In this document: one piece after another, positions 764-15,755 of the stretch | How the letters are laid out: each line of letters starts with the position of its first letter | How positions within the stretch are numbered: position 1 is the first letter of the stretch | Assembly: GCA_027858795.1 (NCBI GenBank) | Contig: JAQICF010000257.1 | Coordinates: 1 to 19,278 of the forward strand | Source of the DNA: Candidatus Delongbacteria bacterium | GTDB taxonomy: Bacteria; Delongbacteria; UBA4055 | Reading direction: 5' to 3' | DNA: 19,278 nt | Notes under the pieces: model-generated | Database searches by the model: none | Told to the model about the DNA's origin: nothing | The model's input: the letters and a program-made list of their open reading frames with translations, nothing else | Made by a program: the position numbers and the translations under genes

Positions 764-1522
764 ATGGAAAGAAAACTAGCAGATATTCATGAATTTTTGA
801 AAGAGGTACATGAAGAAAAGCAAAAACTTAAACTTGGTGAAGTTCTATTATTTAGGGGGCATAATGGAAAGGGTGATTTACTTCCAAAGCTCCTACGAGA
901 AGAATTACTTGACCCTAATGAAAAGCCATTTGATATTGAAGATAAGCTGTACGATGAATTTAAAATTAGAGCAACACCTTACTTAGATATGAATAAAGAC
1001 TTTCAAAATGAATGGAATTTACTAGTTCTAGCACAACATTATGGTCTAAAAACAAGATTATTAGATTGGACTGAGAATCCATTAGTTGCTTTGTTTTTCA
1101 CAGTTTATGGTAGCAATTTTATTGAAAATGGTGAAGAGCGTGAAATTTGGATGTTAAAAGCTACTGATGATAACATCATCAATATAAACAACAATAAAAA
1201 TACAGAAGTATTTAGATCCTATACAAATAAATTTGTTTTCAAGCCATCTGCAATATCTCAGAGAGTGGTCACACAATCTTCGTGGTTTACACACCACTCC
1301 AAAAAACTTCAAAAATTAAATGATAGCAAAAGTATTAAAAATGAACTTATATGTTTTTCGATACCTGACAGGTTAAAAAAAGAGGATATCGAAAAATATT
1401 TAACTCTTATGGAAATTAATACTCATACATTATTTCCTGATTTAGAAAGCTTATGTAAAATGCTAAATGAAAAAAAATACAAACCCAAGCCGCCACTTGT
1501 CATAACTAGTAGAATTCTTTGA
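764..1522 (+). CDS. FRG-domain protein
   Basis: The 252-residue protein carries an FRG domain over its first half, recognised by the eponymous F30-R31-G32 and by QHYG (91-94), TRLLDWT (97-103) and NPLVALFF (105-112). The biochemical activity of this domain is not established to my knowledge. It occurs in accessory and phage-defence contexts and is often found alone or fused to other modules. There is no signal peptide or membrane segment, so it is probably cytoplasmic. The C-terminal half (about 120-252) is Lys/Asn-rich and shows no motif I recognise. The ATG is preceded only by a weak GAGAG. The gene stands alone, converging with the toxin-antitoxin pair at 1545-2955 with a 22-bp gap. It may be an independent defence effector or a third component of that locus. 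Confidence 0.85.
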   Translation: MERKLADIHEFLKEVHEEKQKLKLGEVLLFRGHNGKGDLLPKLLREELLDPNEKPFDIEDKLYDEFKIRATPYLDMNKDFQNEWNLLVLAQHYGLKTRLLDWTENPLVALFFTVYGSNFIENGEEREIWMLKATDDNIININNNKNTEVFRSYTNKFVFKPSAISQRVVTQSSWFTHHSKKLQKLNDSKSIKNELICFSIPDRLKKEDIEKYLTLMEINTHTLFPDLESLCKMLNEKKYKPKPPLVITSRIL

Positions 1523-1544
1523 GAGAATATAGTTTTGTATCCCG

Positions 1545-2606
1545 TTAAAACTTCACTCTCAATTCACTATATTGCCCCCAATCAAGAACCTTATCATGCA
1601 TTAGTCGTCCTACAATGATCCCAACCGGTAAGCCATGCTTCTTTGCAAATTCAACAATATCACTTTTTGAAATCTCCGACTTATTCGCTAAAAGAGAAAA
1701 CTCTTTAGGATATAAGAATTTTACTGCAAAAATATCAGCTTGTTTTTCAATTACCTCTGAACCTGTGCTTTCATTAGAAAGATCTAAAATCACTTCTTTT
1801 TTTGAATGTTCATAATAAACATGCCCAAGTTCATGAAATAAAGTAAACCAAAATATATCAGCATATTTACCCTTTAAACTCATCTGGATTAAAGGTCTTT
1901 TATTTATCCAAGTAACAGCACCATTTATGCTTGCTTTGCTAATATTGGTAGTGATTGTGAAATAGATTCCTGCTTTTTTTAAAATACCTGATAGTAATTT
2001 ATTGATTCTAAAAATATCCGTTTCATTGATTACACTTCTCTTTATTTCAGGAATTACTTCAGTTAGAATTTTATATTTGTCAAATTCAGGATAATCAATT
2101 TTCTCTCTGGCATCTATTTGTCCCTTTCTTAACCAAGCTGCAATCGCATAACTTGAGCTCTCACATTTCGATGAAATTCGAAAAGCGACATTTTCAATCA
2201 GTTGAATTTTAGATAATTTAGCTACACCGAAAAATAACTTCAAATTCCTTATTTGTTCGATTTTTTTTCTAGTAGCCTGAACCCACCCTTGATTTGCAAA
2301 ATCTTTATAGGATATTTTACCCAGAACTTCCTCTTCCTCTTCAAGTTTATCCTCTTCCTCTTTTTTCTTAAGCGAAAGTCTATAATTCTGCTCTAAACCT
2401 AACCAAAAATCAGCTGGAATTCCTAAAACACTTTCAAGCCTATTCGCAATTTCTACTGTAATCTCAGATTTACCTTTTAGAATGTCTATCATATGCTTTT
2501 CAGAATAATCCATTCTCAATGCAAATTCTTTTCTTGAGATACCCCATGTATCTAACTGCTCTATTATTGTTATTCCCGGTGCTACCGGTAATCCTAAAAT
2601 CTTCAT
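1545..2606 (-). CDS. HigA-like antitoxin fused to an ImmA/IrrE-type metallopeptidase domain
   Basis: This 353-residue protein has two recognisable modules. Residues about 7-80 are a HigA-type helix-turn-helix: an APGITIIEQLDTWGISRKEFA helix followed by the KGKSEIT and LGIPADFWLGLEQNY signatures typical of HigA antitoxins. A very acidic/basic linker (79-95, runs of K and E) follows. Residues about 200-310 form an ImmA/IrrE-like zinc peptidase domain with the metal motif HELGH (258-262) and a downstream EKQADIFAVKFLYP (287-300) that should supply the third ligand. In this family the DNA-binding half represses the operon and the peptidase is thought to act in regulated cleavage. The start has a GGAGTG ribosome site 5 bp upstream. 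It lies 25 bp downstream of the toxin gene, giving the toxin-first order of HigBA systems. Confidence 0.88.
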   Translation of the reverse strand: MKILGLPVAPGITIIEQLDTWGISRKEFALRMDYSEKHMIDILKGKSEITVEIANRLESVLGIPADFWLGLEQNYRLSLKKKEEEDKLEEEEEVLGKISYKDFANQGWVQATRKKIEQIRNLKLFFGVAKLSKIQLIENVAFRISSKCESSSYAIAAWLRKGQIDAREKIDYPEFDKYKILTEVIPEIKRSVINETDIFRINKLLSGILKKAGIYFTITTNISKASINGAVTWINKRPLIQMSLKGKYADIFWFTLFHELGHVYYEHSKKEVILDLSNESTGSEVIEKQADIFAVKFLYPKEFSLLANKSEISKSDIVEFAKKHGLPVGIIVGRLMHDKVLDWGQYSELRVKF

Positions 2607-2631
2607 TTTTCACTCCACTGATTATAGTCTT

Positions 2632-2955
2632 TTAATGATAGTCGACTATTTCTTCTATTGAAACTATTGTTACTGATATTAATTCTTTTTCATCTTTTGT
2701 AAATTTGGGTTTTATAATCATTCGGTATGGATGATCTAAGTTTAATCCATAACATCCTTTATAGTTACCTGATAATGAATGACACATTCCAACTTTTTTC
2801 GAAAGTAACAAGTGAAAATTTTCAATATTTACCAATTCATTATACCTTTGATAAATCTTCTCTGCTCTTAGCTTACCATATAATCGTATCGCATTTTTTG
2901 TGTCTTCATTATCAATAATTTTTTTTAGCTTTTTATCTTTGATTATTATTTCCAC
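2632..2955 (-). CDS. HigB/RelE-family toxin
   Basis: A 107-residue protein of the RelE/HigB fold, a family of ribosome-dependent mRNA endonucleases. The diagnostic stretch is LSGNYKGCYGLNLDHPYRMII (about 61-81), matching the L..G..YGL.LDHPYR pattern of HigB toxins, followed by the C-terminal beta strand VTIVSIEEIVDYH. The start is GTG (2953-2955), chosen because the Shine-Dalgarno GAAGG lies 6 bp upstream. It is the first gene of a two-gene operon whose second gene is the HigA/ImmA-like antitoxin. The pair has its own promoter at 2974-3002. The presence of the cognate antitoxin supports a functional toxin-antitoxin module rather than a stray nuclease. Confidence 0.85.
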   Translation of the reverse strand: MEIIIKDKKLKKIIDNEDTKNAIRLYGKLRAEKIYQRYNELVNIENFHLLLSKKVGMCHSLSGNYKGCYGLNLDHPYRMIIKPKFTKDEKELISVTIVSIEEIVDYH

Positions 2956-3002: not shown

Positions 3003-3153
3003 CATTTTTATTTACCCAATAGGTTAATGATTTTCTACTTTGTATCTAGTTTATATTTTAACAACACAAATAAATATATACACTTCACTAGGTCAAATAG
3101 TGACCTTTTGAAAAAAACCTTTAAAAATATTTTTTTATTTTATCTTTTGTACT
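3003..3153. other. Gene-free AT-rich intergenic stretch
   Basis: No coding frame is visible. The only structure is a short hairpin, AGGTCA (3090-3095) with TGACCT (3101-3106), followed by TTTT. It has no plus-strand gene upstream to terminate. Confidence 0.4.
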
Positions 3154-3207
3154 GAACGCAGGAATGCGTTCCGTTTTTTGCACTACAGGGACGCATTCCT
3201 GCGTCCC
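3154..3207. repeat. Pair of related small palindromes (REP-like)
   Basis: Two near-identical hairpins lie 16 bp apart. The first has arms GAACGCA (3154-3160) and TGCGTTC (3165-3171) with loop GGAA. The second has arms GGGACGCA (3188-3195) and TGCGTCCC (3200-3207) with loop TTCC. The second is essentially the first in the opposite orientation, so the two can also pair with each other into a larger cruciform. GC content is much higher than in the surroundings. This is the design of REP/BIME-type intergenic repeats. The following bases (about 3212-3240, CACTAACCACTAATCC) look like low-complexity repeat tail. Confidence 0.7.
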
Positions 3208-3246
3208 CTACAAACTGACCACTAACCACTAATCCCTGCCCACTTG

Positions 3247-4910: not shown

Positions 4911-5519
4911 ATGAAAAACATTACTATAAAAAGAGCTCCTCTTACCTTCCTTAAGGAATATCATAAAGTTCCTATTCAGTTTTCAGCAGATATAATTTAT
5001 CCTGAAGAATTATTTGTAGGAAAAGCTGAGGATATCAACTTGGTAGAAACACCTGTTCCTCGATTTACAAAAGACTATGATGAATATGAGCTACCTTACA
5101 AATGGGTTGAAAAATGGGATATCTCAAACTGGTGCATTTTAAAAGCTGAGATAGATGACCAATATGTCGCCGGAGCAGTCATTGCGTATAATACAAATGG
5201 TGTAAATATGCTTGAAGGCAGAGATGATATTGCAGTTTTGTGGGATATCAGAGTTTCTCCTGATCATAGAGGAAAAGGAATAGGTGAAAAGCTTTTCAAA
5301 GAAGCCGTAAAATTCGCAGAAGAGAAAAATTGTAATTTTTTAAAGATAGAAACTCAGAATATCAATGTAAATGCCTGTAAATTCTACAAAAAAATGGGAT
5401 GCTATCTTGGTAAATATTCAATTCGTGAATACAAAGATCTATCAGATGAAATTATGATGATGTGGTATTACAGAATCAAAGATGAATCTCTCACAAAGCC
5501 ACAGAGGCACGGAGAGTAA
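4911..5519 (+). CDS. GNAT-family N-acetyltransferase, streptothricin-acetyltransferase-like
   Basis: This 202-residue protein has a C-terminal GNAT domain that transfers acetyl groups from acetyl-CoA. The acetyl-CoA-binding motif is VSPDHRGKGIGEKLF (115-129) with the RGKGIG loop at 120-125. The later IETQNINVNACKFYKKMG (146-163) closely resembles the ETQ.IN..AC.FY segment of streptothricin acetyltransferases, and YYRI near 186-189 fits their C-terminal beta strand. The family relationship is clear; antibiotic substrate use is inference. Residues 1-75 are an N-terminal region with few family landmarks. The last 11 residues (from about 192) are encoded by a dispersed DNA repeat and are probably not ancestral. 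It is a single gene converging on acr3 with a 5-bp gap. Confidence 0.85.
   Translation: MKNITIKRAPLTFLKEYHKVPIQFSADIIYPEELFVGKAEDINLVETPVPRFTKDYDEYELPYKWVEKWDISNWCILKAEIDDQYVAGAVIAYNTNGVNMLEGRDDIAVLWDIRVSPDHRGKGIGEKLFKEAVKFAEEKNCNFLKIETQNINVNACKFYKKMGCYLGKYSIREYKDLSDEIMMMWYYRIKDESLTKPQRHGE
5487..5518. repeat. Dispersed repeat of the CTCCGTGCCTCTGTGGC type overlapping the GNAT 3' end
   Basis: On the minus strand this reads CTCTCCGTGCCTCTGTGGCT followed by TTGTGAGAG. I recognise it as a sequence recurrent in intergenic DNA of many bacterial genomes. Here it supplies the last codons and stop of the acetyltransferase gene. Recognition is from memory of similar genomic repeats; a second copy does not occur in this window. 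Confidence 0.55.
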
Positions 5520-6625: not shown

Positions 6626-7057
6626 TTACTCCTTTTCCAGTTTTTTTACAAATTCGTTCATCTTGATTTCTATCTGATCTCTAACATTTCGAGTGAAATC
6701 TAATTTTTCTTCATAAGTACCCTGAAATGCTGATGGATCTTCAAATTCAATGTGTAATCTTTTATAAGCATCTCCTGGGAAAATTGGACATCTTTCACCT
6801 GATGCCTGATCACAGACAGTGATCACATAGTCAAAGTAAATTCCAGAATCTATCTTTTCCTGAACAGTGTTGGTTTTATTCTGAGAAATATCAATGCCTA
6901 TCTCTTTCATTGCATCAACAACAATAGGATTAAGCTTCCCTTTCTCTATTCCAGCACTCTCAGCTTTTAGATTTTCAAGACCTGCATTATTAACAAATGC
7001 TTCGGCCATCTGACTTCTCGCTGAATTATGTATACATACTAATAATATTTTAATCAT
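6626..7057 (-). CDS. arsC: Arsenate reductase, low-molecular-weight phosphatase type (thioredoxin-linked)
   Basis: A 143-residue cytoplasmic enzyme reducing arsenate to arsenite. It has the P-loop C8-x5-R14 (CIHNSAR), the resolving cysteines C82 and C90 in VCDQASGERCP, and the DPS acid loop at 107-109. This three-cysteine layout is that of the thioredoxin-coupled S. aureus pI258 type. The ATG at 7055-7057 was chosen because GAGG lies 5 bp upstream and the protein then begins MIKILLVC as in the family. A frame extension to a TTG at 7090 has no ribosome site and would enter the promoter. It is the first gene of the arsC-acr3 operon, transcribed from the promoter at 7103-7130. Confidence 0.94.
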   Translation of the reverse strand: MIKILLVCIHNSARSQMAEAFVNNAGLENLKAESAGIEKGKLNPIVVDAMKEIGIDISQNKTNTVQEKIDSGIYFDYVITVCDQASGERCPIFPGDAYKRLHIEFEDPSAFQGTYEEKLDFTRNVRDQIEIKMNEFVKKLEKE

Positions 7058-7099
7058 TTTAACCTCGTTCAATTTTTGAATACACTTCAAATATAATAA

Positions 7100-7130
7100 A
7101 TAATATTACAATAATATTATATTATTTCAA
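7100..7130 (-). promoter_or_regulatory. Promoter and candidate operator of the arsC-acr3 operon
   Basis: On the minus strand, TTGAAA (7125-7130) and TAATAT (7103-7108) lie 16 bp apart. The -10 box sits inside a perfect inverted repeat with 9-bp arms, ATAATATTA (7100-7108) and TAATATTAT (7112-7120), separated by 3 bp. Its overlap with the core promoter suits a repressor such as ArsR. The AT-richness means chance cannot be excluded. Confidence 0.5.
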
Positions 7131-7162
7131 AAACATCTTAGACTTTTCAGTTGTAAGTGGTC

Positions 7163-7195
7163 GGTCATTACGAGCATATAGTACGTGGCAATCTC
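7163..7195. repeat. Degenerate GTCATTGCGAG...GGCAATCTC dispersed repeat
   Basis: The ends GGTCATTACGAG and GTGGCAATCTC match a short intergenic palindromic repeat widespread in bacterial genomes, with a degenerate centre. It lies in a 398-bp gap between arsC and the first toxin-antitoxin module. The rest of that gap up to 7330 shows no gene; the only other structure is a small palindrome with 7-bp arms, TCATTAC (7266-7272) and GTAATGA (7276-7282). Confidence 0.45.
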
Positions 7196-7330
7196 AAAAT
7201 GTTTCTCCTATCATCATTTCGTTTAAATAATTATTACTTGCAGAATCTAATAATTTTTGCTTAATTCATTACAAGGTAATGATCAAGTATTACACTTACA
7301 TTAAGAATTTGGTAGAGATACAGGAGCAAA

Positions 7331-7350
7331 AAAACGCCATATGGCGTTTT
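7331..7350. repeat. Perfect 20-bp palindrome at the left edge of the cassette array
   Basis: AAAACGCCAT is followed directly by its reverse complement ATGGCGTTTT. It ends 7 bp before the GTT that begins the first cassette, where an integron would have attI or a preceding attC. It could equally be a bidirectional terminator; no gene runs into it from the left. Confidence 0.5.
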
Positions 7351-7400
7351 CCCACACGTTGTAGGGTAATGTGTTTTCCCAAGAAGAATGATCTAAACTC

Positions 7401-7439
7401 TTGACAAATACGTATTGTTGCATTACATTACATACGTAT
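7401..7439 (+). promoter_or_regulatory. Promoter and twin-palindrome operator of the DUF6364/PIN module
   Basis: TTGACA (7401-7406) and TACATT (7424-7429) are 17 bp apart. Two identical palindromes ATACGTAT (7408-7415 and 7432-7439) flank the -10 box with centres 24 bp apart. Repeated palindromes over the core promoter are typical operators for an antitoxin repressor controlling its own operon. Confidence 0.7.
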
Positions 7440-7455
7440 GCTAAAGGAGGTTACA

Positions 7456-7698
7456 ATGAACACTAAATTAACTCTTTTACTTGATGACGATGTTATCAAA
7501 AAAGCAAAAGGATATTCAAAATCTCATGCTACAAGCCTTTCAAAGTTGGTAGAAGAATATTTTAAAGCTTTATCTGAAATACAGAAGCATAAAGCAATTA
7601 AAACATCAACAATCGTAAGTGAAATTGCAGGCGTGCTAAAAGGATCTGATGTTTCCAAAGACGATTATACAGACTATTTAATCGAGAAATACAAATGA
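7456..7698 (+). CDS. Antitoxin, DUF6364 (ribbon-helix-helix-like) family
   Basis: This 80-residue protein begins MNTKLTLLLDDDVIKKAKGYSK, the beta-strand-plus-helix pattern of ribbon-helix-helix DNA-binding proteins, and continues with TSLSKLVEEYFKAL, characteristic of DUF6364 antitoxins. The C-terminal half (about 50-80) is the probable toxin-binding tail. The ATG at 7456 was chosen over an in-frame ATG at 7438: the Shine-Dalgarno AAAGGAGG (7443-7450) lies between the two and can only serve 7456. Its stop overlaps the start of the PIN toxin as ATGA, so the two are coupled. It should neutralise the toxin and repress the operon through the ATACGTAT sites just upstream. Confidence 0.8.
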   Translation: MNTKLTLLLDDDVIKKAKGYSKSHATSLSKLVEEYFKALSEIQKHKAIKTSTIVSEIAGVLKGSDVSKDDYTDYLIEKYK

Positions 7699-8117
7699 AG
7701 AATATATTTGTAGACAGTGATATCATATTAGATTTAATGCTTGAACGGGGTCATTTTTTCACTCCCGCAGCAGAGTTGTTCAATCTAATTGAAAATAAAA
7801 AGGTTAAAGCATCTGTATCAGCACTACATTTCTCAAACCTGCATTATATAATCAGGAAAGTAAAAAGTAGTGAGCTAGCCAAATCAGTTTTACGGAAACT
7901 AGCAATCATTGTTAAAATCCTTACTGTAGATGAAAAGGCTATTGAATTAGCTTTAGAATCTGATTTCCCAGATTTTGAGGATGCAATTCAGTATTACGCT
8001 TGTCTTGATAATGATATTGATGTCATTGTAACCAGAAATAAGAAAGATTACAAAACTGGAAAACTACCGGTCATGTCAGCTGAAGAATATCTCGCTGCTT
8101 TTAAATCTGAGCATTAA
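7695..8117 (+). CDS. PIN-domain toxin (VapC-like ribonuclease)
   Basis: A 140-residue PIN-domain protein of the PIN_3 type. These are Mg2+-dependent RNases that act as toxins on tRNA, rRNA or mRNA. The acidic residues expected at the active site are visible: D7 and D9 in FVDSDIILDLMLER, D93/D96 in FPDFEDAIQYYA, and D118 after VTRNKKDY. The ATG overlaps the antitoxin stop by 4 bp (ATGA), giving strict co-translation. The length and motif order are complete, so the toxin looks intact. The gene is followed within 40 bp by the attC-like repeat, with no terminator between. Confidence 0.88.
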   Translation: MKNIFVDSDIILDLMLERGHFFTPAAELFNLIENKKVKASVSALHFSNLHYIIRKVKSSELAKSVLRKLAIIVKILTVDEKAIELALESDFPDFEDAIQYYACLDNDIDVIVTRNKKDYKTGKLPVMSAEEYLAAFKSEH

Positions 8118-8147
8118 TTCTCTTCTCGGTTGGGAACACACACATAC

Positions 8148-8228
8148 CCACAACATTGGCAAAACATCAATGGTTACTTGGAGAGTTTTCTTCGCTTATC
8201 ACCACTGGTTTTGCAATGACCGTTAGAA
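8148..8228. repeat. attC-like recombination site, copy 1
   Basis: This 81-bp element starts with CCACAAC and ends at GTTAGAA. Internally, CATTG-CAAAAC (8154-8165, with extrahelical G8159) pairs perfectly with GTTTTGCAATG (8208-8218), and TGGT (8171-8174) with ACCA (8201-8204), leaving a central loop. A very similar copy lies at 8963-9044. An imperfect hairpin with an extrahelical base, bounded by AAC and GTT, is the hallmark of integron attC sites. The outer boxes only partly fit RYYYAAC/GTTRRRY, so I call it attC-like. Confidence 0.6.
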
Positions 8229-8298
8229 GCCAATTTGTTTATATAACCTTTTAAAATATAATCTTTACGTAGCTATGCTAAAAATGATTCTGAATTGT

Positions 8299-8341
8299 TT
8301 TACAAAATTTCTATTGCATTATATACCAATTATTGGTATAT
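8299..8341 (+). promoter_or_regulatory. Promoter and palindromic operator of the ParDE-like module
   Basis: TTTACA (8299-8304) is followed after 17 bp by TATACC (8322-8327). The -10 box is part of a perfect 21-bp palindrome centred on 8331, with arms ATATACCAAT (8321-8330) and ATTGGTATAT (8332-8341). This should be the site where the ParD-like antitoxin represses its own operon. Confidence 0.7.
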
Positions 8342-8368
8342 TGTTATCAACAATGCAAGGAGGAAAGC

Positions 8369-8614
8369 ATGGGTAAAAATACTTCCTTATATATCGGGGA
8401 TCATTTTGAAGAATTCATGTCAAAAGAAATTAGAACAGGTAGGTATAAGTCTGTAAGTGAGATCGTAAGGGCGGGTCTTAGACTTTTAGAAAATGAGGAA
8501 CAAAAACTAGAAGCATTAAGAAATGCTCTAGCTGAAGGTGAAAATAGTGGAATTATTGATAATTTCACCTCGAAAAAACATTTAAAAGAACTTCATAAAA
8601 AATACAAAGCCTAA
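8369..8614 (+). CDS. ParD-family antitoxin
   Basis: The 81-residue protein starts MGKNTSLYIGDHFEEFMSKEI, continues with GRYKSVSEIVRAGLRLLENEE (the ribbon-helix-helix of ParD antitoxins), and ends in a charged tail that should bind the toxin (IDNFTSKKHLKELHKKYKA). A strong AAGGAGGAA (about 8357-8365) directly precedes the ATG at 8369. An in-frame start at 8333 would lie inside the operator and has no ribosome site. The stop codon overlaps the toxin ATG (TAATG). It probably neutralises ParE and autorepresses through the palindrome at 8321-8341. Confidence 0.88.
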   Translation: MGKNTSLYIGDHFEEFMSKEIRTGRYKSVSEIVRAGLRLLENEEQKLEALRNALAEGENSGIIDNFTSKKHLKELHKKYKA

Positions 8615-8913
8615 TGAAATTATTCAAAATAACCGAAAAAGCAGGTTCCGACCTAGAAAATATCTGGTTATATACTTTTCAGAACTGGTCTCTCGAGCAG
8701 GCTGATAGATACTATGAGCTAATAATGAATGAGATATTTTTTCTTTCAGAATATCCTACAGCAGGCAGTATTGCTGATCACATTTTAAAAGGCTATAGAG
8801 TTTCTAGAGTAAAATCTCATCTAGTATTTTATAAATATAATTCAGATGGCTTCATTGTTGTTATTAGAATTCTTCATACCAGCATGGATGTAGAAAACAA
8901 GTTTGAAGCTTAG
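8614..8913 (+). CDS. ParE-family toxin
   Basis: A 99-residue RelE/ParE-superfamily toxin. The ParE pattern is clear: ITEKAGSDLENIWLYTFQNWSLEQADRYY (about 6-34), then GYRVSRVKSHLVFYKY (81-96 region) and VVIRILHTSMDVENKF at the C-terminus. ParE toxins act on DNA gyrase, although targets differ across the family. The ATG overlaps the antitoxin stop by one base, so synthesis is coupled. Length and terminal motif are complete. It is followed after about 50 bp by the second attC-like site. Confidence 0.9.
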   Translation: MKLFKITEKAGSDLENIWLYTFQNWSLEQADRYYELIMNEIFFLSEYPTAGSIADHILKGYRVSRVKSHLVFYKYNSDGFIVVIRILHTSMDVENKFEA

Positions 8914-8962
8914 ATATAATCGAAATAATTTGTAAAATATTCACGATATATAAACAAACAGG

Positions 8963-9044
8963 CTCTAACATTGGCAAAATATCAATGGTTACTTGGAGAG
9001 TTTTATTCGCTTATCAACACTGGTTTTTACCATGACGGTTGTAG
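8963..9044. repeat. attC-like recombination site, copy 2
   Basis: This is nearly the same sequence as copy 1: the shared core ATCAATGGTTACTTGGAGAG (8981-9000) is identical to 8166-8185. The outer stem has diverged but still pairs: CAT(T)GG with CCATG (9030-9034), and AAAA with TTTT. Changes on both sides that keep pairing suggest the structure is selected. It starts at CTCTAAC and ends at GTTGTAG, closing cassette B. The distance from AAC to GTT is 71 bp, against 70 in copy 1. Confidence 0.6.
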
Positions 9045-9244
9045 TTCATTTTTCATCTCTATTTTTGCTTAACATATAGCAGTTTAACCCATATTTTATA
9101 TTATGGTTCAATTGTAGAAAGTTTCATATTATCTATTTCTTGAAATAATCTTTTTATAACATTAGTTAAATGACTTGTCCTGTGTTATATTGTCTTATAC
9201 GCTTTTTGCAAAGACAAACAACAAATTTCTTAATGAAGGTTAAA
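9045..9244. other. Gene-free leader of the histidine kinase
   Basis: No gene is visible between the attC-like site and the kinase. An open frame extends upstream of the kinase start to 9170, but it has no ribosome site there and its codons (MTCPVLYCLIRFLQR) do not continue the coiled coil. No promoter stands out. Confidence 0.35.
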
Positions 9245-10402
9245 ATGGAGAGAAAAAAACGCGCAGCAGAATTGGTTACTGCCAACAAAGAACTCGATTT
9301 TCAAAATGAGGAGAAGGAAAAACGCGCAGCAGAATTAGTCATTGCTAATCAGGAACTTGTTTTTCAAAACAGAGAGAAAGAAAAACGAGCAGATGAGTTA
9401 GTTATGGCCAACAAAGAACTCGCCTTCCAAAACGAGGAGAAAGAAAAACGAGCTGCCGAATTAGACATTGCAAATAAAGAACTCGCCTATCAAAACGAAC
9501 AGAAAGAAAAACGGGCGGAAGAATTAGTTACTGCTAACCAGGAACTTGTTTTACAAAACAGAGAGAAAGAAAAACGAACAGATGAGTTAGCTATGGTTAA
9601 CAAAGAACTCGCCTTCCAAAACGAACAGAAAGAAAAACGGGCAGCAGAATTAGTCATTGCAAATAAAGAACTCGCTTATCAAAACGAACAAAAAGAAAAA
9701 CGGGCGGAAGAATTAATTTTTGCAAATAAAGAGCTTGAGCAGTTTGCATATATAGCTTCACACGATCTTCAGGAACCACTTCGTACAATATCAAATTACA
9801 TGCAAGTTTTCGAAGAGGATTATTTAATGCTGTTAGATGATAATGCCAAAAAATATCTTCTGGCTGTAAAAAACGCATCAAAAAGAATGAGCATTTTAAT
9901 TAAATCTCTCTTGAGCTTTTCACGAATAGGACGTAATCTCGACATTAGTGAGGTCGATTGTAATCAACTTATTTCTGATGTAATTGCTGACCTTAAAACG
10001 ATAATTCAAACTTCAAATACGGTAATTGATGTAGGAGAAATGCCTAAACTTAATCTTTACGAATCCGAGATCCGACAACTTTTCCAGAATCTCATCTTAA
10101 ACGCAATTAAATTCCAAAAAAAAGATAACCAACCAAAAGTTCAAATCCGATCAGAGAAAATAAATGAGAATTGGGAATTTTCTGTTACGGATAATGGAAT
10201 TGGGATCGCACCTGCTCATTTCGAAAAAATATTTAATATTTTTCAGCGTATTCACAACAATGAAGATGTTTATAAAGGAAAAGGTATCGGGCTCTCAAAT
10301 TGCAAAAAAATAGTTCAAATGCATCACGGAGAAATCTGGGTTGAATCTGAATTAGGAAAAGGAACTACATTTTATTTCACAATACCATGGAGTACATTAT
10401 GA
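9245..10402 (+). CDS. Soluble histidine kinase with a tandem-repeat coiled coil
   Basis: From the ATG at 9245 (AAGG 5 bp upstream) the protein has 385 residues. Residues 4-166 are eight 21-residue repeats of the type EKRAAELVIANKELAFQNEEK, exactly three heptads each, forming a long coiled coil. A HisKA domain follows with phosphoacceptor H173 in ASHDLQEPLRTI. The ATPase domain has the N box QNLILNAIKF (N286), DNGIGIAP (316-323) and GKGIGLSNCKKIV (345-357). There is no membrane segment and no PAS, GAF or other recognisable sensor domain, so it is cytoplasmic and probably senses through the coil or through a partner. The H-box resembles phytochrome-type kinases. Its stop overlaps the next gene as ATGA, and that gene encodes its probable receiver partner. 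Confidence 0.9.
   Translation: MERKKRAAELVTANKELDFQNEEKEKRAAELVIANQELVFQNREKEKRADELVMANKELAFQNEEKEKRAAELDIANKELAYQNEQKEKRAEELVTANQELVLQNREKEKRTDELAMVNKELAFQNEQKEKRAAELVIANKELAYQNEQKEKRAEELIFANKELEQFAYIASHDLQEPLRTISNYMQVFEEDYLMLLDDNAKKYLLAVKNASKRMSILIKSLLSFSRIGRNLDISEVDCNQLISDVIADLKTIIQTSNTVIDVGEMPKLNLYESEIRQLFQNLILNAIKFQKKDNQPKVQIRSEKINENWEFSVTDNGIGIAPAHFEKIFNIFQRIHNNEDVYKGKGIGLSNCKKIVQMHHGEIWVESELGKGTTFYFTIPWSTL
9254..9742 (+). repeat. 63-bp tandem repeats inside the histidine kinase gene
   Basis: There are eight in-frame 63-bp units (the last partial), each encoding 21 residues. Units 2-4 and 5-7 resemble each other more than their neighbours: NREK ends units 2 and 5, and the D-E-L/N-K-E-L-A-F pattern occurs in units 3 and 6. 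This implies duplication of a 189-bp block of three units. Confidence 0.85.
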
Positions 10403-10809
10403 AAAAAGAAGCAATGTGTATCATGCTTGTTGATGACAACAAGGATGATAATTTCTTTCATGAAAGAGAAATTAAAAAAGCTAATTTAGAAACGGCTGTT
10501 ATAGTTAAGGAATCAGGGACTGATGCGTTAGAATATCTACATTCAATGATCGAGACAAGTAATACAAAGCCAACCCTGATATTTTTGGATATTAACATGC
10601 CTGGAATGAATGGATGGGAATTTCTTGATGAATACAGTAAACTAGACAAAATTATTCAAAGCGGAATGATCATTGTTATGCTAACTACTTCCGATAATCC
10701 CGAAACTCAAGCCAGAGCAATGTCATGGAGTTCAGTCTCCGAATATATAACAAAACCTTTGACCAAAGAGAGAATGAAAGACGTTAATGACAAATATTTC
10801 AAATCTTGA
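10399..10809 (+). CDS. Single-domain response regulator (Rcp1/CheY-like)
   Basis: A 136-residue receiver with no output domain. The acidic pocket D12-D13 (LVDDNKDD), phosphoacceptor D64 (LIFLDINMPGMNG), T96 (LTTSDN) and K119 (YITKP) are all present. The sequence, especially the FLDINMPGMNGWEFL stretch and the long loop before it, fits the Rcp1 type that partners with phytochrome-like kinases. The ATG at 10399 was chosen because it forms an ATGA overlap with the kinase stop and has GGAG upstream; an in-frame ATG at 10387 is 12 bp earlier. It presumably receives phosphate from the adjacent kinase and acts by protein-protein contact. The target is not visible here. Confidence 0.9.
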   Translation: MKKEAMCIMLVDDNKDDNFFHEREIKKANLETAVIVKESGTDALEYLHSMIETSNTKPTLIFLDINMPGMNGWEFLDEYSKLDKIIQSGMIIVMLTTSDNPETQARAMSWSSVSEYITKPLTKERMKDVNDKYFKS

Positions 10810-10824
10810 AGGAACAAAGCCCGC

Positions 10825-10882
10825 CTGTAACACTGTCTAAATAACACTAACTGGTAAGCACTTTTAGCCATGTCCGTTATCA
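10825..10882. repeat. Possible third, shorter attC-like site
   Basis: It begins CTGTAAC and ends CCATGTCCGTTATC, whose GxCCGTTA end matches copy 1 (CAATGACCGTTAG). Internally, CACTG-CTAAA (10831-10841) pairs with TTTAGCCATG (10863-10872), with one bulge and one mismatch. It lies 16 bp after the response regulator. The pairing of its left box with the start of the presumed kinase cassette (GTTGTAG, 9038-9044) needs two G-T pairs and does not extend, so this site is less certain. Confidence 0.35.
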
Positions 10883-11181
10883 AACAAGTAAGGATGGAGA
10901 TTTAGATTTGTTAGGATTTCTGTATTAATATGTACAAAACAAACAATAAAAGTGAATGTATTGGTAAAATTTGATGAAATCAAAATTTCGAACACAAGTA
11001 TTAAGGCATTTTTTGAAGATATAGTTTATGTGCTCAGAAATTATAAACATTTGGGACATATTAGTCTCATGATCCGCGATCCTTTCCAAATATGCTTTCA
11101 CAATGTTACTAAAATATTACACGATTGTTAGAAATGTGTTAAAATTATAAGTTTTGTTATATATTTTCAATTTCATATCAC
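10883..11181. other. Gene-poor stretch with one doubtful short frame
   Basis: A frame from a GTG at 10952 to a TAG at 11129-11131 could encode 59 residues (…FFEDIVYVLRNYKHLGHISL…). It has no ribosome site, no recognised motif, and the frame is open back to 10892 without an ATG. It may be the remnant of a gene. Nothing else is visible here. Confidence 0.3.
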
Positions 11182-14178: not shown

Positions 14179-14970
14179 TTGTCTATTTCGATTTACATAA
14201 AGAAACTTTTATCCTATGAAGAATATTCTTTTTCATGGAATGAACTGATTGCCAATATCAACAAATCAGAAATTTCATTAAGAAGAAAACTTGAAAGACT
14301 TGTTGAAAAAAGGGAAATAGTTAACCTTAGAAGAGGATTTTATTTAATTATTCCTCCCCGATATTCAAAAACAGGATATGTTCCTATTCAGCTATATGTA
14401 GATAAGTTATTTAAATTTTTGGACAGAGAATATTATTTGGGATTTTATAGTGCAGCAAAAATTCATGGAGCATCACATCAACAGACACAAAGAGATTATA
14501 TAGTCACTTCGCCACCCTCGCTTTTAGACATAAAAAAAGGAAATTTTGATTTAAGATTTTCTACTTCTTCTGATTGCTCTAATATCAATATTTTAACGAA
14601 AAAATCAGATGCCGGTTATTATAAAATTTCAAGTCCTGCTCTAACAGCAATAGACCTTATCCATTATCAGAAAAAAATTGGTGGATTGAACAGGATATTA
14701 TCAACTCTCGAAGAATTAATTGAAGAAATCACAATTGAGGATGTACAAAACCTACTAACATGGTATCCGAATAAAGCTTCACTTCAACGATTTGGTTTTT
14801 TCCTTGAAATGTATCAAGCTGATAAAAAAATATTAAATTTAATCTATAAACATATCAGTATTTCAAAATTCTTTCCTGTTCTTCTTAATTCAGATACAAA
14901 TCAAAAAGCAGGTAAAGTAAATAATAAATGGAAAGTTGATGTAAATATAAAATTGGAAAGTGACCTATGA
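14179..14970 (+). CDS. AbiEi-family antitoxin (type IV toxin-antitoxin, phage abortive infection)
   Basis: A 263-residue AbiEi-like protein. The N-terminal winged helix is visible at about 15-55 (WNELIANINKSEISLRRKLERLVEKREIVNLRRGFYLI), followed by the antitoxin core PPRYSKTGYVPIQLYVDKLFKFLDREYYLGFYSAAKIHGASHQQTQRDYIVTS (about 59-111). AbiEi represses the operon and counteracts AbiEii without stable binding. The start is a TTG at 14179, chosen because AAGGAG (14163-14168) lies upstream and no ATG occurs in the early frame. The stop overlaps the toxin start by 4 bp (ATGA). Together the two genes form a phage-defence module. Confidence 0.87.
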   Translation: MSISIYIKKLLSYEEYSFSWNELIANINKSEISLRRKLERLVEKREIVNLRRGFYLIIPPRYSKTGYVPIQLYVDKLFKFLDREYYLGFYSAAKIHGASHQQTQRDYIVTSPPSLLDIKKGNFDLRFSTSSDCSNINILTKKSDAGYYKISSPALTAIDLIHYQKKIGGLNRILSTLEELIEEITIEDVQNLLTWYPNKASLQRFGFFLEMYQADKKILNLIYKHISISKFFPVLLNSDTNQKAGKVNNKWKVDVNIKLESDL

Positions 14971-15755
14971 TCCCTAAACCTTACATAGCGAAATGGCAAA
15001 ACAATGCACCTTGGAAAGAGTTCACACAAATTGAACAGGATCTGGTTATCAGTCGTGCTTTAGTAGAAATATTTTCTGATCCTTTTTTGAATGAAAATTT
15101 AGCTTTCAGAGGTGGAACTGCACTTCATAAACTTTATCTCACTCCTGCTGTAAGATATTCTGAAGATATTGATCTTGTTCAGATAAAACCCGGACCAATT
15201 AAACCGATAATGCAAAGATTAGATGAAGTCATTACTTTCTTTGAGGAAAAAAGAAATACAAAGATCGGTGAACATGGTGCAAAAGCATTATATCGATTTA
15301 CTTCTGAGTATGAAGAAATTAGATTAAGATTGAAGCTGGAAATTAACTGTAAAGAACATTTTAATGTATTGGATTGGGTCGAATTTCCTTTTGAAGTAGA
15401 AAGTGATTGGTTTTCAGGCAAAACTACTCTGAGAACATATAATATAAATGAATTATTAGGAACAAAACTCAGAGCTTTATATCAAAGAAGTAAAGGTAGA
15501 GATCTTTTTGACCTTTATTATTCATTTTTGAATGTAGAACTTGATTACAATAAGATCATTGAATGTTTTCATAAATATATGACATTTTCTGTTGGCAAAT
15601 CTCCTAGTAGTAAAGAATTTCTCTTAAACTTGGAAGCAAAGGAGGATGATCTGAATTTCACAGGTGACATGGAAGCATTATTAAGACCAGAAATTGAATA
15701 TGATCAAAATAAAGCTTTCGAATGGGTGAAGGAGGAGTTGATTAAGAGGATCTGA
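14967..15755 (+). CDS. AbiEii/AbiGii-family nucleotidyltransferase toxin
   Basis: This 262-residue protein of the DNA-polymerase-beta-like nucleotidyltransferase family is the toxin half of AbiE. Related toxins (MenT type) add nucleotides to tRNA acceptor ends. The family motifs are in order: FRGGTALHKLY (47-57), YSEDIDLV (64-71, catalytic D67 and D69), a KLEINCKEHF strand (about 121-130), and LLGTKLRALYQRSKGRDLFDLYY (about 156-178). The protein looks complete and active. The start overlaps the AbiEi stop as ATGA. The gene ends 6 bp from the convergent ABC permease gene, with no terminator between them. Confidence 0.9.
   Translation: MIPKPYIAKWQNNAPWKEFTQIEQDLVISRALVEIFSDPFLNENLAFRGGTALHKLYLTPAVRYSEDIDLVQIKPGPIKPIMQRLDEVITFFEEKRNTKIGEHGAKALYRFTSEYEEIRLRLKLEINCKEHFNVLDWVEFPFEVESDWFSGKTTLRTYNINELLGTKLRALYQRSKGRDLFDLYYSFLNVELDYNKIIECFHKYMTFSVGKSPSSKEFLLNLEAKEDDLNFTGDMEALLRPEIEYDQNKAFEWVKEELIKRI

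Follow-up and report, generated by a model that had tools for sequence, protein, structure and literature searches.

A probable integrase-less, integron-like cassette array of toxin–antitoxin genes in a Candidatus Delongbacteria contig

Results and discussion

How might neighbouring toxin–antitoxin operons come to lie between copies of the same imperfect hairpin? The question is raised by a stretch of 19,278 nucleotides (hereafter the window), contig JAQICF010000257.1 of a Candidatus Delongbacteria bacterium (assembly GCA_027858795.1), in which an initial annotation, made from the sequence alone, had seen an integron-like cassette array of toxin–antitoxin modules. That reading is supported by further copies of the hairpin, by an integrase in relatives and by a gene order that varies, and we take the window, with considerable confidence, to contain an orphan (integrase-less) integron-like array of a Delongbacterium. 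It very probably runs from an orphan attI-like palindrome through cassette 1, an attC-like hairpin, a ParDE cassette 2 and another attC-like hairpin to, possibly, a third cassette encoding a two-component system (Table 1). Such an array would be integron-like in its working and yet not an IntI integron; we do not file it as one because the IntI insert is absent from the relatives' integrases and the window is without an integrase.

A hairpin family recurring across the phylum

Both copies of the hairpin lie where the annotation had placed them (8152–8224 and 8967–9040) and are 95% identical across 61 nt. The AAC-to-GTT spacings are 70 and 71, as claimed; the core given as 20 identical bases is indeed identical, but the run around it is 24 nt long (8166–8189 and 8981–9004). 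The two operons, DUF6364/PIN_3 and ParD/ParE, are bounded by GTT as proposed, at 7358, 8222 and 9038. In the alignment to the family model each window copy deviates from the stem at one or two pairs, and the copies are somewhat degenerate.

In a scan of a collection of species genomes, an exact 19-base core occurred at eight loci, all in three Candidatus Delongbacteria metagenome-assembled genomes (MAGs). At E ≤ 10 these MAGs give 41, 20 and 12 DNA matches, of which the lowest-scoring are due to chance. Iterated profile searching of 40 fetched contig stretches (loci, numbered with L) and the window returned 60 matches at E ≤ 0.01, among which are both window sites and one partial match. Sites are co-oriented in 13 of the 13 loci with more than one, their ends constant (YAACATTGGCAAAA...TTTTTGCCATGACCGTTR) and their middle variable. 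All 55 sites that were aligned are imperfect hairpins with invariant AAC, GTT and one unpaired T, the last being the extrahelical base already noticed in the stem; compared with the consensus RYYYAAC/GTTRRRY, the positions flanking AAC and GTT vary by cassette across the 55 rows. A divergent attC class in a little-studied lineage had been suggested, rightly so; the orphan attI, the third candidate site and the non-IntI nature of the integrase were not part of the annotation.

Over 17 named pairs, 98.3% of 864 cells in the 55 sites are paired versus 34–46% in slid controls, a figure biased towards the stem structure, which was drawn from the same sites. For this reason the two-sided changes, present at 6 of the 17 pairs, are the better evidence. 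None of 500 shuffles did as well on paired cells, on two-sided changes or on covariation score. A covariance model (R1) built on 55 copies, the window's two included, was run on 13 genomes (numbered with G) placed in the phylum of MAG G001, 150 candidates being scored per genome. The copies envisaged elsewhere are there: 12 of the 13 genomes have matches at E ≤ 0.01 (43, 18, 11, 11, 9, 7, 6, 4, 4, 3, 3 and 2), and G004 has none at that threshold. On the window the model finds two strong sites and one weak (candidate site 3), the runner-up to which scores 14 bits (E 0.29). A single match at E ≤ 1, a Rufibacter site, on 12 plasmid and Escherichia coli loci (144 kb) indicates that false positives are rare and that the model scarcely transfers across phyla. 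A DNA search for distant relatives of both cassettes in plasmids returned just two short RelE/ParE matches.

Beyond the sites themselves, 13 loci (L049, L052, L054, L059, L061, L062, L066, L070, L073, L077, L081, L082 and L084) share a post-site stretch, mostly a mini cassette without an open reading frame (ORF), GTTGTAAACTTTTACAAC, followed by a half-site ending near ATCATCTATCAGTCCGAA. The stretch resembles an array-end element, yet L084 has another right half-site further on. The sequence CATCTATNNGTCCGAA, present behind other arrays, was not found in the window.

An orphan attI with different contents in a relative

Where integrase genes are intact, their 3′ ends and the palindromic site behind them resemble window positions 7313–7360. 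By blastn, the match to the end of the intact gene in L075 covers 42 nt (88% identity, E 5e-9), and that to a second orphan attI, in L034 of MAG G002, covers 46 nt (89%, E 4e-12). The integrase gene remnant at this place is short and not open, and the window's own integrase has probably been lost.

Contig C64 of G001 is the orthologous locus, with the phosphatase gene and attI region conserved, and window 6651–7353 aligns with L056 9958–9300 at 77.6% identity over 705 columns. After the GTT, everything in C64 differs from the window: it has four different sites and different genes, including an opposite-strand one of 1697 residues. The attI itself has two palindromes in G001 versus one in the window. 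In G003 the counterparts of window positions 5480 and 11162 abut, with a 16-base overlap, so the intervening region is absent at that place. With the same attI followed by other cassettes in G001 and the region missing from this place in G003, gene order is not conserved between relatives, in keeping with the array that had been proposed. The ACR3 flank has no match in G001–G003 and is therefore uninformative on synteny. A window gene outside the array (73–621) is 98, 96 and 95% identical to its counterparts in the three Delongbacteria MAGs that have the 19-base core, which places the window in their lineage.

Signatures of circularization and shuffling

If a cassette were to circularize, its first bases would come to adjoin the right-hand end of the site that it carries, and its start should therefore complement the bases immediately left of AAC in its own 3′ site. 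In 24 Delongbacteria cassettes (between consecutive sites less than 6 kb apart, plus two attI-adjacent ones; 3 of the 60 sites, in which AAC or GTT was not located by rule, were omitted) the matching prefix after GTT averages 4.71 of 8 bases versus 1.36 with shuffled partners, a value reached in 0 of 20,000 shuffles. A circle would rebuild a complete attC for these cassettes and for the 29 Bacteroidota genes described below; the signal is weak in the window's two.

Cassettes also recur behind different sites. Clustering of cassette starts places one start in seven positions in three MAGs, behind sites differing in sequence, and another in six positions in two MAGs, again behind differing sites and once at an attI behind a broken integrase gene; two of these six (L060 and L065) follow an identical site and may represent a single place divided between contigs. 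A stretch of the window's ParDE cassette (8269–8980) is 92% identical to L067 3596–4308 in MAG G001, where it follows a different attC-like site: the copy starts a few bases from the GTT of a divergent site and extends into the left arm of the next.

As a separate observation, a cassette starting GTTAGCCCTAATTAATTTTTC recurs in L050, L055, L056, L063, L078 and L082. Where readable (L050, L055 and L056) it is 5–6 kb long, large for a cassette, and in L056 it contains a 1697-residue gene on the opposite strand.

The integrases of the relatives

An integrase near such arrays was found in the relatives, beside an attI-like site; the window keeps only the attI and a scrap of the gene. Integrase genes that match the L075 protein at 66% identity or more, across 200 residues or more, occur in six of the 13 phylum genomes, and there are fragments in G005, G007 and G011 (54–59%) and one of 36 residues in G010. 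Among the 12 integrase genes examined (11 at ≥ 66%, one of them broken, and one at 55%), seven have downstream a palindrome of varying perfection and then CGTT; the other five reach the contig end first. In L075 integrase, attI, cassette and attC-like site stand in series on one strand. The gene at 55% (L074 14319–15437) encodes a 372-residue clade integrase with an N-terminal extension of ~90 residues, and no attI is seen in the 60 bases that remain before the contig end.

A homolog search returned at least 7,995 proteins at E ≤ 1e-20 (7,999 candidates scored), which may include Xer and other relatives. Residues R134, K159, H223, R226, H249 and Y258, which we take to be catalytic, are invariant in 38 homologs. 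In the alignment a block of ~43 residues, presumably the I2 helix region, is present in 7 of 7 IntI proteins and absent from 16 of 16 clade integrases, and in the AlphaFold model of the integrase no helix is seen from residue 183 to 200; the model is of low confidence at residues 251–259 and 278–290, and the tyrosine helix is left uninterpreted. Judged from these enzymes, from which the defining insert is missing, the clade integrase is not IntI. Foldseek gives 26–34% identity to XerA, IntI4 and XerD structures, with archaeal XerA and IntI4 (2a3v) jointly at the top, a comparison that does not separate the two. Among NCBIfam models the L075 protein scores 217.7 with the XerA/integron model (cut-off 220) and 214.4 with the IntI model (cut-off 265); of four integrases, two are matched best by the XerA-type model and two by IntI. 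In a tree of 47 rows rooted on 12 Xer proteins (columns less than 30% filled removed), the clade (28 rows, support 100/99) joins IntI (7 rows, 100/100) as its sister group at a node supported by 95/86, apart from Xer; the sampling is small, with long branches.

A working model can be built on features that were computed directly, namely the site family, its co-orientation and covarying stems, the cassette self-complementarity, the absence of the I2 insert, the shared cassette starts after differing sites and the same attI with different cassettes. In such genomes a tyrosine recombinase of the I2-less clade sister to IntI, with its own attI at the 3′ end of its gene and cassettes downstream in the same orientation, would excise cassettes as circles by joining two attC-like sites at GTT, and the circles would be inserted at attI or at another attC-like site. 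Encoded elsewhere in the genome, the recombinase would also act in trans on orphan arrays like that of the window; its substrate may or may not be a single folded strand.

Related loci on Bacteroidota plasmids

On a plasmid of Rufibacter tibetensis, small genes in a common orientation, with hairpin sites, come after the gene for an integrase of 51.6% identity, and plasmids of Pontibacter and Chryseobacterium are similarly arranged. The arrays on Parabacteroides and Bacteroides ovatus plasmids consist of genes annotated as immunity-type or hypothetical, with hairpins bearing a CATTA box in the intergenic gaps. Over 29 genes of four arrays (Parabacteroides, B. ovatus, Rufibacter and Pontibacter; every candidate site per gap used, L121, L122, L124, L125, L127 and the last listed gene of L119 excluded), the matching prefix averages 5.34 versus 2.45 when shuffled (0 of 5,000 shuffles), and is ≥ 5 in 23 genes and < 5 in six. 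Most Bacteroidota sites had escaped a high-threshold automatic search for stems; the intergenic-gap rule that took its place chose incorrect pairs, or found no pair, in many gaps, especially those of the CATTA-box loci.

Five of the nine fetched plasmid loci with related integrases, hand-picked among the matches listed and not a clade-wide sample, have site arrays (L119, L120, L121, L128 and L129). L124 has one candidate site, L125 a single gene with an insertion sequence, and L122 a truncated integrase with tet(X3); no array was seen in L127 (Bradyrhizobium). In L122 (NZ_CP041297.1, 5028–7049) the truncated 'xerD' beside tet(X3), which is not among the tree rows, is 51.7% identical to the Rufibacter integrase (query residues 46–274), and between the two genes there is a palindrome resembling the Delongbacteria attI; tet(X) may therefore have been carried as a cassette by an array of this kind in the past. 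Separately, L121 7890–12541 (Chryseobacterium) has three near-identical ORF-less mini cassettes (GTTGGGAAAAATCGCCC... with a 140-bp site).

The recombinase-associated acquired interbacterial defence (rAID) clusters of Bacteroidales are described as a predicted tyrosine recombinase with co-oriented short genes and conserved intergenic motifs (PMC12247911). L128 and L129, the Parabacteroides and B. ovatus loci, agree in their features with a rAID immunity cluster, a likeness drawn from the description and not from the published reference recombinase. Like integron cassettes, they have hairpin sites and self-complementary cassette ends, and their recombinase belongs to the same I2-less clade. The window differs from rAID in that its cargo is toxin–antitoxin pairs, its box CGTTR and no recombinase is encoded, whereas rAID has a recombinase followed by co-oriented orphan type VI secretion immunity genes and a CATTA box.

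Alternative explanations

Known attC sites run from AAC to GTT and have an unpaired base and a variable top, and a cluster of attC sites lacking an integrase (CALIN) is defined through the attC model of IntegronFinder as at least two sites close together. The present sites have these traits in common with attC, as would be expected if the array were a classical IntI integron or a CALIN and the IntI itself had escaped assembly or detection, the I2-less recombinases being bystanders. CALINs are, moreover, reported as common in surveys (PMC9024848). We consider this explanation very improbable all the same: the IntI model TIGR02249 has no match above cut-off in any of the three genomes searched, and an I2-less integrase gene has the attI where it ends, the first cassette following at once, a coupling also seen on the Bacteroidota plasmids. 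Double-stranded exchange of cassettes between Xer-like sites, with the hairpin incidental, is unlikely to a lesser degree and partly compatible with an integron-like array. Such exchange, which has been suggested for the Xer-flanked resistance modules of Acinetobacter (PMC7399989), would suit both an integrase without the I2 helix, which is said to confer single-strand recombination (PMC7790495), and the proteins best matched by the XerA-type model. It sits poorly, however, with a stem whose pairing is conserved through compensatory changes while the inner part varies, and with sites that are hairpins of 66–79 bp with one GTT box.

Most improbable of all is that ordinary chromosomal toxin–antitoxin genes merely adjoin an immobile repeat resembling a repetitive extragenic palindrome or a terminator. 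Such gene pairs are common and the folding energy is unexceptional, yet the self-complementary cassettes, the shared starts after differing sites and the different contents at the same attI largely contradict this explanation.

Several observations nonetheless weigh against an orphan integron-like array. Minimum free energy folding of both window sites, on either strand, is no better than that of shuffles (z −0.49 to −0.74), and the number of further pair types in the family stem is equalled by 12 of 500 shuffles. The window has no intact integrase; L075 is the sole fetched Delongbacteria contig with all four elements together; and G010, G012 and G013 have site matches but no close integrase, save for the G010 fragment. 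Ungapped, the window's two cassettes match at two and three bases, and the start of candidate cassette 3 is poorly complementary to its own candidate site. The first 47 bases of the window ParDE cassette are not common to L067, and the start of the L067 copy does not match its end. With one-base indels permitted, each of the window's two cassettes has ~10 matching bases by eye, and such gapped matching fits decay in an orphan array.

Comparison with known systems and significance

The orphan integron-like array and its relatives share with IntI integrons and CALINs co-oriented cassettes that would be circularizable, a hairpin with AAC/GTT ends and an unpaired base at each cassette 3′ end, an attI at the platform, and orphan arrays. 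They differ in an integrase clade without the IntI-specific insert, in an attI placed where the integrase gene ends, with cassettes reading in the same direction, and in sites that beyond AAC/GTT appear to fit RYYYAAC/GTTRRRY imperfectly. The adjacency of integrase and attI that marks integrons is found in the relatives, and the window retains the attI with the scrap of gene. Archaeal integrons likewise have their attI right after the integrase gene and occur mostly as CALINs in MAGs; unlike the present clade, their IntI are reported to carry the IntI-specific additional domain (PMC9668308). The consulted portion of a study of simple tyrosine recombinases links no cassette arrays to insert-less members of its integron-like subgroup (PMC8138268), to which our clade may belong.

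On balance we lean towards a second widespread integron class, spanning at least Delongbacteria and Bacteroidota and served by a clade that never had I2 and is sister to IntI, with the rAID arrays and the xerD–tet(X) loci as members or relics. No such I2-less class is named in the titles or abstract openings of the related literature searched, and in the open literature, with subscription papers mostly beyond the reach of the search, no paper joins 'integron' and 'Delongbacteria'. The 2019 rAID paper in Nature may have remarked on integron-like features. The word integron is absent from the 2025 rAID preprint (PMC12247911).

The I2 helix has been described as necessary for cassette capture, as conferring single-strand recombination and as found in no other protein; its gain is seen as having opened the way to integrons, and the missing intermediates are regretted (PMC7790495). 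With an I2-less sister clade sitting beside hairpin cassette arrays, this accepted account becomes directly testable. If the second class is real, the capture of hairpin cassettes predates I2 or needs no I2, and the view of integron origins could change through an I2-less recombinase that serves related arrays. An intI survey retained only matches with the additional domain or patch (PMC2426708), a filter that may explain why such arrays went unnoticed. Finally, the mechanism of gene gain in rAID clusters was called not yet clear in the 2025 preprint (PMC12247911), and an I2-less recombinase acting on hairpin sites would offer one.

Layout and neighbourhood of the array

Table 1. Features of the array and its left flank in the window (gene families from Pfam; bit scores from covariance model R1)
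Feature	Position	Strand	Details
LMWPc, low-molecular-weight phosphatase/arsenate-reductase-like gene	6626–7057	−	Flanks attI; kept at the orthologous locus of MAG G001
Degraded integrase 3′-end scrap fused with palindromic attI-like site (AAACGCCATATGGCGTTT)	7313–7357	+	blastn
Cassette 1	7358–8221	+	DUF6364 antitoxin-like gene 7438–7698; PIN_3 toxin-like gene 7695–8117
attC-like site 1 with flanks	8147–8229	+	AAC 8152–8154; GTT 8222–8224; 78.2 bits
Cassette 2	8222–9037	+	ParD 8369–8614; ParE 8614–8913
attC-like site 2 with flanks	8962–9045	+	AAC 8967–8969; GTT 9038–9040; 79.0 bits
Candidate cassette 3, between site 2 and candidate site 3	9038–10878	+	Histidine kinase 9170–10402; response regulator 10387–10809
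Candidate degenerate attC-like site 3	10824–10883	+	25.8 bits, E 7e-4, filters off

Rfam and tRNA scans of the window gave no matches. On the 3′ side of the array lies an AbiEi/AbiEii type IV toxin–antitoxin pair (14179–15755), and the covariance model finds no site of the attC-like family adjoining it at E ≤ 0.1. The start of the histidine kinase gene contains, at 9249–9798, a 63-bp (21-residue) tandem repeat in at least six copies. At the other end of the window (764–2955) an FRG-domain gene is accompanied on the opposite strand by a helix-turn-helix/M78-peptidase gene and a small upstream gene without a Pfam match, an arrangement that resembles a HigBA-type pair. A 27-nt inverted repeat at 3146–3214, 85% complementary and with 15-nt spacing, is perhaps a terminator or a repeat element.

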